Below are positions 22,883 to 35,650 of a DNA stretch of 64,000 nt, piece after piece. Source of the stretch: an uncultured Solirubrobacterales bacterium (GTDB taxonomy: Bacteria; Actinomycetota; Thermoleophilia; Solirubrobacterales; JACPNS01); the NCBI GenBank assembly GCA_937128795.1, contig CAKZMQ010000001.1, positions 310,001 through 374,000 on the forward strand, written 5' to 3'. A program made the translations under genes and the position numbers. The stretch's first letter is position 1. The number at the start of each line of letters is the position of its first letter. A model generated the notes under the pieces. It did not search any database. It was not told the DNA's origin and saw only the letters and a program-made list of their open reading frames with translations.

Positions 22883-23263
22883 TTAAAAGTCTTCGGGAAG
22901 AATGTGGCCTTCGCCGAGCGCACCTACGAACGTGTTGATCTCGGTCGCCATATTCGCGTAAGTCAGGTTGCGGAGGTCGCGGACGAGTGAGTCAGTTCCG
23001 CGGTCGAGCAGGCAGTCGAATTTCTCGATCAGTTCCTCGTCCATCACGCCCGGCGCGACGTCTTCGCAGTTCGGACAACGCAGCGTCACACGCCAATGGG
23101 TTCCCTCGGCCTGTTCCCAGTCAATCGGGTAGACCATGTCGCAGTCACAGTGCTGGCAGTGCGATACGTCCTCGATCTTCGATGCGATTGCATCCTCGAG
23201 ACGGCGGCCGCGTACTGCCGAACCGGCTTGCTGCTTCTTGGTCTTGTCGTTTCGTGAGTTCAT
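22883..23263 (-). CDS. Small zinc-ribbon-like protein
   Basis: I do not recognise a named family in this 126-residue product. Two CxxC pairs stand out: HCQHCDCD near residue 37 and RCPNCED near 63, about 25 residues apart, which suggests a single zinc ribbon. The N-terminus is Lys/Arg-rich (MNSRNDKTKKQQ). The C-terminal half is acidic and helical. The ATG at 23263 has GAGG 9 nt upstream; an ATG at 23278 is possible. It converges on the prenyl synthase terminator. Confidence 0.8.
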   Translation of the reverse strand: MNSRNDKTKKQQAGSAVRGRRLEDAIASKIEDVSHCQHCDCDMVYPIDWEQAEGTHWRVTLRCPNCEDVAPGVMDEELIEKFDCLLDRGTDSLVRDLRNLTYANMATEINTFVGALGEGHILPEDF

Positions 23264-23435
23264 TCCGTTGAGCCTCATTGGGGGTGCTGGCTGGTCTGTC
23301 CACGGCTCGTATCGACACCGCCGATTGCGGCCTTTAGTCGAATCTTGGGTATTTCGTTTTACGACCAGCCAGTCACTTGGTGCCTGAGCTGCAGCACGCC
23401 TTCGGAACTCAGCGACTACCCGCCATCGCACCGCC

Positions 23436-29572: not shown

Positions 29573-30616
29573 ATGGCCGCGGGAGCAATTCCAGAGCGTG
29601 TCTCGATTGGCGTAGTCGGGTTGGGTCACTGGGGCCCGAATCTGGCACGTAACTTCGCTGCGCTGCAGGATGTCGACGTAACCTGGCTGTGCGACGGAAA
29701 TTCCGATGCGCTTGAGCGCCAAAGACCGGGACACCCATCGGCGAAGCTGACCGCATCGATCGACGACCTACTCGACGACGACCAGCTCGACGCGGTGGTC
29801 GTCGCGGCGCCGGTTCCAGCGCACGCAGAGCTCGCGACCCGGGTGCTCGCCGCAAACAAGCACGTGTTTGTCGAGAAGCCGCTCGGCGCGACGTTGGCCG
29901 AAGCCGAACAACTCGTGACCGCTGCGCAATCCGGTGACCGCATCGTGATGGTCGGTCATCTGCTCGAGTATCACCCGGCCGTCGAGAGACTGAAAGCAAT
30001 GATCGATGCCGGCGAGCTTGGTGAGATTCGCTACGTGTACTCCACCCGTCTGAATCTCGGCAAGCTGCGCACAGATGAGAATGCACTCTGGAGCCTCGGA
30101 CCACACGATGTCTCGGTCGCGCTCGCGTTGATCGGAGAGGAACCCATCGAGGTCTCCGCGCACGGCGAGGCGTATATGAACGCGGGCGTGGAAGATGTTG
30201 TCTTTGGCTACATGCGCTTTCCCTCCGGCATCGCATCTCACCTCCACCTCTCCTGGCTGGACCCGCACAAGGAACGCCGCATCACGGTTGTCGGGTCCGA
30301 GAAAATGGCGACGTTCGACGACATGCGCATCGAAGGCAAACTGACCGTCTACGACAAAGGTTTCGACCAGAACTTCGAGTCCTACGGCGAGTACCTGGCG
30401 CGCTCCGGTGACATCACGCAACCCCACATCTCGAACGAGGAGCCATTGCGGATCGAGTGCCGCCACTTCGTCGAATGCATCCGCAGCGGCGAAACCCCTC
30501 GTACAGACGCGCTTTCCGGGCTGCGAACCGTGCGCGTTCTCGAGTCGCTTCAGAACTCACTCGATGCTGCTGCCAGTCGCGGCGCATCTGCCACCGAGGG
30601 CGTGACCAGTGGCTGA
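29573..30616 (+). CDS. Gfo/Idh/MocA-family oxidoreductase (WbpB/WlbA-like)
   Basis: The 347-residue NAD-dependent enzyme has the nucleotide loop GVVGLGHWGPNLARNFAAL at about residues 13-31. HVFVEKPLG is the family's EKP motif, near 97. The C-terminal GFO/IDH beta-sheet domain spans from about 130. In the UDP-diacetamido-uronic-acid pathway this family oxidises C3 of UDP-GlcNAcA. The gene starts 5 nt after the dehydrogenase and overlaps the acyltransferase by 8 bases. Confidence 0.9.
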   Translation: MAAGAIPERVSIGVVGLGHWGPNLARNFAALQDVDVTWLCDGNSDALERQRPGHPSAKLTASIDDLLDDDQLDAVVVAAPVPAHAELATRVLAANKHVFVEKPLGATLAEAEQLVTAAQSGDRIVMVGHLLEYHPAVERLKAMIDAGELGEIRYVYSTRLNLGKLRTDENALWSLGPHDVSVALALIGEEPIEVSAHGEAYMNAGVEDVVFGYMRFPSGIASHLHLSWLDPHKERRITVVGSEKMATFDDMRIEGKLTVYDKGFDQNFESYGEYLARSGDITQPHISNEEPLRIECRHFVECIRSGETPRTDALSGLRTVRVLESLQNSLDAAASRGASATEGVTSG

Positions 30617-31325
30617 TTCGACTGCGGCTGATTCGACCGAGTCGATCGCCGCTTCGGCGGTCATCGAGGACGGTGCCGTGATCGGAGCAAATGTCACGAT
30701 CGCCGCCGGCGCAGTCGTTCGGGCCGGATCGGTGATCGGTGACAACTGCGTACTGCAGGAAAACTGCGTCGTTGGCAAACCCCCGGTGTTGGGCTCCGCG
30801 TCAACTGCAAGGTCCGAGGTTGCAACGGCGATTCTCGGTGCCGAGGTGTCGGTGCTCGCCGGAGCGATTGTATTCGCGGGGGCCGAGTTGGCGGACGGAG
30901 TGATCATCGGCGACCACGCGATAGTTCGCGAGAACGTCAGTATCGGGAGGCGTTCGGTGGTTGGTGCCAACGTCGTGGTCGAGAACGAGACGACCGTCGG
31001 CCAACGAGTGAAGATTCAGACCGGTGCCTACGTGACCGCCCAGATGATCGTTGAGGACGATGTTTTCATCGCACCGGCCGTGGTCACCACGAACGACAAC
31101 ACGATGGGACGTCACGCGGCAAATGAGGTGAATCGAGGTCCGATTCTGCGCCGCGGCTGTCGCGTCGGTGCCGCAGCAGTGCTGCTTCCCGGAGTAACCG
31201 TCGGCGAAGAGGCTTTCGTGGCCGCAGGAGCGCTTGTGACGCGAGATGTGAGCCCGAGGATGCTGGCGATGGGCAGTCCAGCGCGGGAGATTCGAAAAGT
31301 CGAGGCTGCAACGACAGAATCCTGA
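30609..31325 (+). CDS. Left-handed beta-helix acyltransferase (WbpD/WlbB-like)
   Basis: The 238-residue protein consists largely of hexapeptide repeats ([LIV]-G-x4), for example AVIEDGAVIGANVTIAAGAVVRAGSVIG and VIIGDHAIVRENVSIG. It ends GVTVGEEAFVAAGALVTRDV. The motif around TTNDNTMGRHAANE resembles the PTNDxxPxR-like turn of sugar N-acetyltransferases. Likely acetyl transfer to the 3-amino sugar produced in the same pathway. The GTG at 30609 overlaps the Gfo/Idh gene. Confidence 0.88.
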   Translation: MADSTAADSTESIAASAVIEDGAVIGANVTIAAGAVVRAGSVIGDNCVLQENCVVGKPPVLGSASTARSEVATAILGAEVSVLAGAIVFAGAELADGVIIGDHAIVRENVSIGRRSVVGANVVVENETTVGQRVKIQTGAYVTAQMIVEDDVFIAPAVVTTNDNTMGRHAANEVNRGPILRRGCRVGAAAVLLPGVTVGEEAFVAAGALVTRDVSPRMLAMGSPAREIRKVEAATTES

Positions 31326-31399
31326 ATCGCCGAAATGATTGAAGTTCCGCGCTCGGCTGCCGATACAAAGCGCGTTACAACAATCGTTGAGGTGGACCC

Positions 31400-34204
31400 A
31401 TGTCAGACGGCCAGTTTCCGCCCGAGTCTCCGCAAGACCCGGTCAACGCCCGAAACACAAGCTCAGAGTTCGATCCCGATCAGGAGCCAGGACTTGCTCC
31501 TATCGGTCAACCGATGCCTGCGGACGCGGGTTCACCGGAAACCGATTCATCCGCCGACGAGACGATCGATCTCCCGACGGGAGGTCAGTATCCCGAAGAC
31601 ATGTTTGGGGTTTCAGACGTCGTCGAAGACGAAGCCGTGATCGAACTGCCGGCAGATGCAACTGCCGGCGGACTTGCCGACGCGGGACTTGAATACGGAG
31701 ATGGATCAGTCGAACCGCTGCCACCGGCGGCCGAACCGCAGCCACTCACCGAAATCTCGCTCGACCCCATCCCCGCGCCACCTGCAGCCGACTCAGTCGG
31801 TGGCGACATGTTCGCCGTCGACGACCTGATGGCGTCGGATTCCGACCAAACGACAGAAGAGGCACCCGCTCCCGACTCGCCGCCCGCGCTTTCGCCTGCG
31901 GCCGGCGGCAGCGAGGAAGCTGACATGTTCTCGATCGACGATTCGATCGGCGACGCGCTCACGGAGGAGCCTCTGACCGACATCCCGGCGGCCGACGCTG
32001 CCAGCGGCAGTGATCTGTTCAGTCTCGATGATGTGGCCAACGACGACCAGCCCCAGGCGGAGTCGGTGCACGACCCGGCACCACTTGCAACCCCGGAACC
32101 GCTGGCAACACCAGAACCGCTCGCAACTCCGGAGCCGCTAGCAACTCCAGAACCGCTCGCAACTCCAGAACCGCTCGCAACTCCGGAGCCGCTCGCGACA
32201 CCCGAACCCATTCAAAGCTCAGAACCGATCGCAAACCCTGAGGCTTCATTTACAACTGAGCCGCCCCAAGCAGCCGAGCAGCCACCGGTGTCCCAACCAC
32301 TCGCGATACCGGAACCGGTCGCGACCCCAGAACCGCTGAGCGCACCGGCCCCCCTTGCGTTCGAGTCAGAGTCACAACAGCCGCCCGTCGCGGCAGACGC
32401 CGACAGTGCAGTCGAGCCGGGTCCCGACCAGGTCACAGAGCAGCCGCTCTCGGATGTCGCCAAGCTGTACTCGCAGGAGCCGCGGGTCGAGGCGCAGCCG
32501 CCGCTCGCAGGCACGGAAATCACGAGTCCTTACGCAGCGGAGCCGCAGGAAGCCGAGGTGTTGGATCCGGCGATGACCGATCTCGAAACCGCTGCGGATG
32601 AGTCCGAATCCGATGCCGCCACGATCGTGAATCCCTATGCCGAACCCGACAACGAAGTCGGGGTACTTGATCCAGCTATGGCTCTGAGCGAGACCGAGCG
32701 CGTCGAGCCCGAGCAGCCGCAAGAGGTCTTTGTCCGCACGGACTCCCAGCACTACGTCGAGAGCAACGAATATGAGCAGGCGGGAACGGACGACTACGCG
32801 CTCCCCGATTTGCCCGCGACCAACCGCTCGGAGAGCGTCGCGCCCCCCGGCATGGAAAACATGGTGATCGGTGGTCTCGTTGTCGCCAACGGAGGTCGTG
32901 CCGCAAAGAAATCACCACTGACCAAATCAGTCGGTGGCAAGGGCAAAGGCAAGTCCAAGGCCAAGTCGCAGCCCAAGCGCAAGGGACTTCCATTCGGTAA
33001 GGGCAAAGTGAGCGTGGCCGACGAAGTCGCTCCGGGCGCTGTCGCTGCGCCTGCCAATGCGCCGATGCACGGACAGATGCCGAACGACCAGACGGTCACG
33101 CAGGCCGCGGAACAATCTACGGAGTACGTCCAGCAGCCACCACCCGCTCAGGCACCACCCGCTCAGGCACCGACCGCTCCGGCACCAGTCGCACAGGTGC
33201 CGGTCGAGGGCAAGACGGGTAAATCACTCGCCGACCGCGTGTTCGGCGAGGCCAAGCCCGGTGAGCGCCACTCATTCTTCGGCTTCAAGTTTGGCGATCC
33301 GGCACCGCTGCCCGGCCAGCCGCAGTTGACGCACTCGCAGCCGATCGCAACCGAAGCGCCGACCGAAGGCAAAAAGAACAAACGCAGTCGCAAGGCGAAG
33401 CCCGCAAAGCAGCCCGACCCGAGCAAGCCTGCCAAGCAGGGCAAATCACTCGCCGACCACGTCTTCGGCGAGGCCAAGCCCGGCGAACGCCACTCGTTCT
33501 TTGGCATCAAATTTGGCGATCCGGCACCGCTGCCCGGTCAGGCCCAGCCAGTTGCGCCCGACATGGGCCAGGCGCCGGTACAACCACAGGTGCAGCCCGC
33601 AGCTCAGCAGGCAGCGTCAGCGCCACAATCCACGCCACAGCCAGTTGCTCCGCTCGTTTCAGCCCCGCCGGCTGCGCCAGCTCCGCCAACAGTTTCAACC
33701 CCGCCAACTGTTCCAGCTCCACCTAGCGCCGACGACTACCAAGGTGCGCAGGTGATTCAGAGCGCAGAAGCCACCACACACGCGCAGGGTAAAAAGAGCA
33801 AGCGTGCCCGCAAGCCGAAAAAACAGAAGGCACCGAAAGCCGCGAAGCCGCCGAAGCAGGGCAAATCGCTAGCCGACCACGTCTTCGGCGAGGCCAAGCC
33901 CGGTGAGCGCCACTCGTTCTTCGGCTTCAAGTTTGGCGATCCGGCGCCGCTGCCCGGACAGGCCCAGCCATTTGCGCCCGACACGGGCCAGGCGCCGGTA
34001 CAACCACAGGTGCAGCCCGCAGCTCAGCAGGCAGCGTCAGCGCCTCATTCCACAAACTCCGCTTTCCCGGGGGGATATCCAGTCGACTTCGCCGAGGGCG
34101 CAGGCCAACATCCCCAGGCGCCAGCGCCCGAAGCAGGCCAGTCCGTCCCAACGCAGATAGTCCCGCCGGTCGAACAGACCGCGCAGGCACAGCAGCGCCA
34201 GTGA
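31400..34204 (+). CDS. 934-residue low-complexity repeat protein, no recognised family
   Basis: No known domain, signal peptide or membrane helix is seen. Residues 1-460 are acidic and Pro-rich. They include four D-[ML]-F-x-[VIL]-x-D motifs (EDMFGVSD, GDMFAVDD, ADMFSIDD, SDLFSLDD) and a run of PEPLAT units at about 229-270. Two copies of a VLDPAM element lie near 385-430. A Lys-rich segment (KGKGKSKAKSQPKRKG) lies near 515-535. Three copies of a 34-residue box at 608, 682 and 822 start KSLADxVFGEAKPGERHSFF. AGGTGG precedes the ATG. It lies 74 bp after the acyltransferase on the same strand. Codon use looks normal, so it is probably expressed. Confidence 0.88.
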   Translation: MSDGQFPPESPQDPVNARNTSSEFDPDQEPGLAPIGQPMPADAGSPETDSSADETIDLPTGGQYPEDMFGVSDVVEDEAVIELPADATAGGLADAGLEYGDGSVEPLPPAAEPQPLTEISLDPIPAPPAADSVGGDMFAVDDLMASDSDQTTEEAPAPDSPPALSPAAGGSEEADMFSIDDSIGDALTEEPLTDIPAADAASGSDLFSLDDVANDDQPQAESVHDPAPLATPEPLATPEPLATPEPLATPEPLATPEPLATPEPLATPEPIQSSEPIANPEASFTTEPPQAAEQPPVSQPLAIPEPVATPEPLSAPAPLAFESESQQPPVAADADSAVEPGPDQVTEQPLSDVAKLYSQEPRVEAQPPLAGTEITSPYAAEPQEAEVLDPAMTDLETAADESESDAATIVNPYAEPDNEVGVLDPAMALSETERVEPEQPQEVFVRTDSQHYVESNEYEQAGTDDYALPDLPATNRSESVAPPGMENMVIGGLVVANGGRAAKKSPLTKSVGGKGKGKSKAKSQPKRKGLPFGKGKVSVADEVAPGAVAAPANAPMHGQMPNDQTVTQAAEQSTEYVQQPPPAQAPPAQAPTAPAPVAQVPVEGKTGKSLADRVFGEAKPGERHSFFGFKFGDPAPLPGQPQLTHSQPIATEAPTEGKKNKRSRKAKPAKQPDPSKPAKQGKSLADHVFGEAKPGERHSFFGIKFGDPAPLPGQAQPVAPDMGQAPVQPQVQPAAQQAASAPQSTPQPVAPLVSAPPAAPAPPTVSTPPTVPAPPSADDYQGAQVIQSAEATTHAQGKKSKRARKPKKQKAPKAAKPPKQGKSLADHVFGEAKPGERHSFFGFKFGDPAPLPGQAQPFAPDTGQAPVQPQVQPAAQQAASAPHSTNSAFPGGYPVDFAEGAGQHPQAPAPEAGQSVPTQIVPPVEQTAQAQQRQ
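32083..32210 (+). repeat. 18-nt tandem repeat encoding (PEPLAT)n
   Basis: About seven tandem units of 18 nt encode PLATPE. The units vary mainly at third positions (ACT CCG GAG CCG CTA GCA and ACT CCA GAA CCG CTC GCA, for example), consistent with selection for the peptide. The run lies inside the 934-residue protein gene. Confidence 0.9.
33443..34044 (+). repeat. Direct repeat, two copies 420 bp apart, in the repeat-protein gene
   Basis: The box starting at 33443 recurs at 33863, exactly 420 bp later. The segment 33565-33624 is identical to 33985-34044 over 60 bases, while the preceding part differs mostly at third positions. An earlier, more diverged copy begins at 33221. This indicates recent duplication or gene conversion within the gene. 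Confidence 0.88.

Positions 34205-34291: not shown

Positions 34292-35650
<1,359 letters not shown>

Follow-up and report, generated by a model that had tools for sequence, protein, structure and literature searches.

A genus-restricted disordered repeat protein of Solirubrobacterales probably shares a WhiG-type regulon with type IV pili

A gene encoding a 934-residue disordered repeat protein, which we call X, very probably belongs to a pilus and c-di-GMP regulon of the WhiG type like that of Rubrobacter, and its promoter suggests that X is most likely produced alongside type IV pili. The gene occupies positions 31400–34204 on the forward strand of the window, the 64,000-nucleotide stretch of DNA analyzed here, and is an intact open reading frame without an internal stop. 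We compared the genome of the window (G000) with those of four congeners (G001–G004) and found X at the same locus in all five. By these sequence comparisons X is a real, genus-restricted gene, as indicated by its constant position and by a dN/dS of 0.22–0.40 in its N-terminal half (most pairs are close to saturation in dS). When the order was searched with an N-terminal profile, X turned up in these five genomes and in none of 227 others.

An earlier, sequence-only reading of the window had described X as lacking any recognized domain or membrane helix, and family searches and hydropathy analysis agree. The protein is low in complexity and rich in proline and alanine; it has no match over cut-off in Pfam or NCBIfam and nothing convincing in the PDB, and its best 19-residue Kyte–Doolittle mean, 0.91, gives no membrane helix. 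The first ~500 residues are acidic throughout, with a net charge of about −6 to −13 per 50 residues. They are followed by a conserved SVAPPGM..LVVA segment and a Lys-rich stretch (together 32834–33007; all features within X are on the forward strand) and then by Pro/Ala/Gln linkers that bear three near-identical boxes. The boxes start with KSLAD at residues 608, 682 and 822 (box 1, 33218–33319; box 2, 33440–33541; box 3, 33860–33961), and the basic KKxKRxRK stretches reported ahead of the last two are present as KKNKRSRK (residue 658) and KKSKRARK (residue 798), respectively. Several further elements had been overlooked. Four acidic motifs of the DMF[SAG] kind begin at about residues 68, 137, 176 and 206, namely EDMFGVS (residues 67–73; 31598–31618), DMFAVDDL (residues 136–143; 31805–31828), DMFSIDDS (residues 175–182; 31922–31945) and DLFSLDDV (residues 205–212; 32012–32035). 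There are also two NPYA..EAxVxDPAM motifs and a tandem array of the six-residue unit ATPEPL (18-nt unit; 32075–32208), and the SVAPPGM..LVVA segment ahead of the Lys-rich sequence had likewise gone unremarked.

At the DNA level, identity between the boxes is 88–89% over 114 nt; for copies 2 and 3 it is 92% over 209 nt, so that the duplicated unit is longer than 34 residues. Synonymous differences between copies far outnumber replacements (dN/dS of 0.03–0.08), a pattern that gene conversion may partly explain. The 34-residue box had been proposed as the repeated element, and its three copies are real in the window; across species, the conserved unit is the core alone. The G000 box reads KSLADxVFGEAKPGERHSFFG[FI]KFGDPAPLPG, and a related box in G002 and G003 is 53% identical to it. 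In G001 and G004, the box is reduced to a ~10-residue core, KSFFGIKYG, with at least four and at least six copies, respectively. The part that stays constant across the genus is K-x-FFG[IF]x[FYVI]G (mostly K-x-FFGIK[FY]G); flanks and copy number differ, and the boxes of the long-box species also have invariant Gly, Pro and Asp positions. In the N-terminal part, G000, G001 and G004 each have four acidic motifs (DMFS[IV]DD type), and G002 and G003 have three; two NPYA..EAxVxDPAM motifs and PEPL-type arrays are found across the genus.

The box corresponds to no known domain in Pfam, NCBIfam or the PDB. We rejected one candidate, the ThermoDBP ssDNA-binding domain (ssDBP_DBD, PF18361), for which X scores 23.3 bits and one box 13.8 bits against a cut-off of 25 and which recurs in the PDB only at an E value of 0.8. 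A search with the box across 201 genomes of the order returned, outside X, just matches at E values of about 0.01 and above, which is chance level. Two marginal candidates, G002:C25 (E value of 0.14) and G001:C21 (E value of 0.58), contain no frame with the core motif and were set aside. AlphaFold assigned X a mean pLDDT of 37 from a two-sequence alignment, a value that fits disorder as weak evidence. A prediction for two boxes reached a mean pLDDT of 59 and hinted at a short helix and a hairpin in one of them, a signal too weak to claim a defined fold.

Comparison of the five loci suggests how X came about. The G002 protein ends in an intact RDD membrane domain and the G003 protein in an internally deleted one, and X has no RDD domain in the other three species. 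Each of the four relatives also has, downstream of X, a separate RDD gene whose product carries a Pro-rich tail. Neither X nor any other gene in the G000 genome (93.8% complete) encodes an RDD domain (PF06271), and only about 88 bp separate X from its convergent neighbor purA (34292–35590, reverse strand), with the RDD gene of the relatives missing from between them. At a more distant Thermoleophilaceae locus (L048:6306-7079), a 258-aa Pro-rich RDD protein takes the place of X before purA, and X is absent. The most economical inference is that the Pro-rich tail of an RDD protein encoded here grew into X, which afterwards lost the RDD domain step by step. X resembles the Pro-rich RDD proteins in its position before purA, in its Pro-rich tail and, in G002 and G003, in the fused RDD domain itself. 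It differs from them in that the tail has been enlarged to more than 800 residues with new motifs and in that X has lost the domain in three species, one of which, that of the window, lacks it genome-wide. The same graded loss could mean that X is a decaying remnant, a tail that lost its function along with the RDD domain. We consider this very unlikely, because the frame is open in all five species, the N-terminal half has the dN/dS given above, and both the promoter and the motifs are conserved.

All five genomes share the gene order aminotransferase, wecB-type epimerase, UDP-sugar dehydrogenase, oxidoreductase, hexapeptide acyltransferase, X and purA, with contig ends interrupting it in G003 and G004. 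X lies next to the upstream genes in each of the five. From the position of X behind the nucleotide-sugar operon, whose last gene is the acyltransferase (30609–31325, forward strand), the sequence-only reading had proposed a scaffold for surface polysaccharide assembly; such a protein would collect the UDP-GlcNAc 2-epimerase, UDP-sugar dehydrogenase, oxidoreductase and acyltransferase at the membrane. The conserved order, the shared strand and the short gap in front of X (75–83 bp in the five species) speak for this proposal, as does a family 2 glycosyltransferase gene in G002 that has a WhiG-type promoter in front of it. No terminator is obvious in the gap, and transcription could therefore continue into X from the sugar operon. 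However, adjacency is all that ties X to polysaccharide, and two observations count against the tie. X has its own conserved WhiG/FliA-type promoter of the kind common to type IV pilus genes, whereas the window has no convincing site of this kind before the sugar genes, and a related family keeps the upstream sugar genes at the equivalent locus without X. We thus consider a sugar-enzyme scaffold unlikely. A hybrid of the two ideas would have the sugars made by the upstream enzymes decorate pilin; pilins can carry glycosylation. The scaffold-like architecture remains plausible apart from its polysaccharide part, given the low complexity, the short repeated motifs, their conservation within variable linkers across five species and the low pLDDT of X.

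The promoter of X, TGAAGTTC-N11-GCCGATAC, spans 31340–31366 on the forward strand, 34 bp before the ATG, and is kept in all five species. It departs from the WhiG/flagellar consensus TAAA-N15-GCCGATAA at 2 of 12 positions. Each of the five genomes has a single copy of the exact core AAGTT-N12-GCCGATA, and that copy lies before X. A matrix built exclusively from pil promoters gives the X site 17.6 bits and ranks it first in the four other loci and second in the window; this matrix is expected to yield ~0.03 sites in 64 kb and 2e-5 in a gap of 75 bp, figures to be read with the caveat that the training sites were chosen by consensus near pilus genes.

In Streptomyces, the WhiG regulon serves sporulation. 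A FliA/WhiG sigma factor is encoded in all five genomes (TIGR02479, about 279 bits; cut-off of 189.6), and a relaxed promoter motif gives 37 sites in these genomes as compared with 4 for a reversed control. Such sites precede X and a second PilT-like ATPase in every genome (the latter from coordinates in G004), pilM in G000, G001, G002 and G004, pilB in G000, G001 and G002, and membrane GGDEF proteins in G000 and G003, with the identities of the pilus genes confirmed by Pfam. Five of the six exact sites in G000 lie before pilM, pilB, the PilT-like gene, a GGDEF gene and X; the remaining one (C1:37257) seems to be a chance occurrence within what, judged by eye, is an apparent recombinase gene. 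Besides these targets, the regulon takes in a small zinc-ribbon-like protein, in G002 a glycosyltransferase, and some secreted proteins.

This content matches that of Rubrobacter radiotolerans, in which predicted WhiG promoters drive type IV pilus and DGC/PDE genes under control by RsiG-c-di-GMP-WhiG, according to a report that also places a single-motif RsiG in Thermoleophilia (PMC8325347). The two systems are alike in promoter type (−35 TAAA, −10 GCCGATAA), sigma family and pilus and GGDEF targets. The passages considered from that report do not mention a disordered repeat protein as a target, which X appears to be here. The match in regulon content is the basis on which we propose that X is made together with pili. 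The RsiG motif E(X)3S(X)2R(X)3Q(X)3D has no match in the sequence stretches examined, which cover part of the genomes.

Co-regulation with pilus genes is not proof of a role in the pilus machine. X is also limited to one genus, whereas type IV pili are far more widespread, and so it cannot be a core component of the pilus. The reading that we find best, and to which we give about an even chance, is that X acts in the cytoplasm as an intrinsically disordered scaffold for the type IV pilus system in this genus, by analogy with the HubP/FimV hubs. These hubs are tied to type IV pili and have a long, acidic, mostly unstructured cytoplasmic part with imperfect repeats whose number varies between close species (PMC12918733), the same kind of fast-changing, repeat-bearing region as is found in X. 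X has no sequence relation to them and lacks a LysM domain and the C-terminal TPR/FimV domain (no Pfam match); it would thus only work like a HubP/FimV protein rather than being one. The X of the window also differs from these hubs in having no membrane segment of its own; a link to the membrane, if there is one, would run through an RDD protein.

As a pilus scaffold, X would be made when pili are made and would bring components of the pilus machine together on the inner side of the membrane. Its acidic N-terminal half, with the DMFS[IV]DD motifs, and its basic C-terminal half, with the Lys-rich segment and the K-x-FFGIK[FY]G boxes, would present multivalent binding motifs on flexible linkers, and these motifs might bind client proteins, one another or acidic lipids. 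The RDD membrane protein, either fused to X or encoded alongside it, would tether X in four of the five species; with this tether lost in the species of the window, the boxes and basic stretches there would have to anchor X alone.

Binding to acidic lipids could instead be the whole function. In that case, X would coat the membrane electrostatically in the manner of MARCKS, with basic stretches and Phe boxes that bind to acidic lipids until a signal frees them, and it would alter the membrane or envelope in the sessile state rather than act on the pilus. The basic-aromatic boxes, the RDD partner in four species and the charge polarity would all suit such a protein, but the invariant Gly, Pro and Asp positions of the long boxes exceed the needs of a lipid patch, and we judge this reading improbable.

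The pilus-scaffold reading can be carried further, although only tentatively: X may be the founder of a set of genus-specific pilus organizers, a charge-polarized disordered hub derived from a membrane-protein tail, whose repeated DMFSIDD and KSFFGIKYG motifs would draw PilM and the pilus ATPases together at the membrane, under the control of WhiG and possibly of c-di-GMP. If so, X would be the actinobacterial counterpart, in function, of HubP/FimV, with an independent origin, and it would illustrate a route from a membrane-protein tail to a pilus scaffold. It would likewise show that promoters can assign disordered proteins to a pathway where sequence similarity fails. Membership of the regulon would make an orphan low-complexity protein a testable part of the known WhiG switch and would place a WhiG regulon with a new target in an uncultured genus.

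On the reverse strand of the window (22883–23336), a small protein of 131 aa with CxxC pairs and no Pfam match follows a 17.9-bit WhiG-type site, TAAAG..TGTCGATAC; its orthologues in G001 and G003 also have such a site, and G004 has one at the corresponding distance from X. The family 2 glycosyltransferase of G002 (L151:6848-8350, reverse strand), which follows the promoter TGAAG..TGCCGATAG, possibly ties the regulon to an exopolysaccharide. Two GGDEF proteins of the regulon (L167:20-1396, reverse strand; L096:1287-2576, forward strand) have long disordered N-terminal regions that are probably extracytoplasmic, and a 429-aa G001 protein with a signal-like N terminus and no Pfam match (L012:12578-13963, reverse strand) has a 19.3-bit WhiG-type site ahead of it. 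The PilB of G001 (L141:15713-17599, forward strand) carries an MshEN domain, a fold that binds c-di-GMP in other ATPases, so that c-di-GMP may act on pili at two levels.
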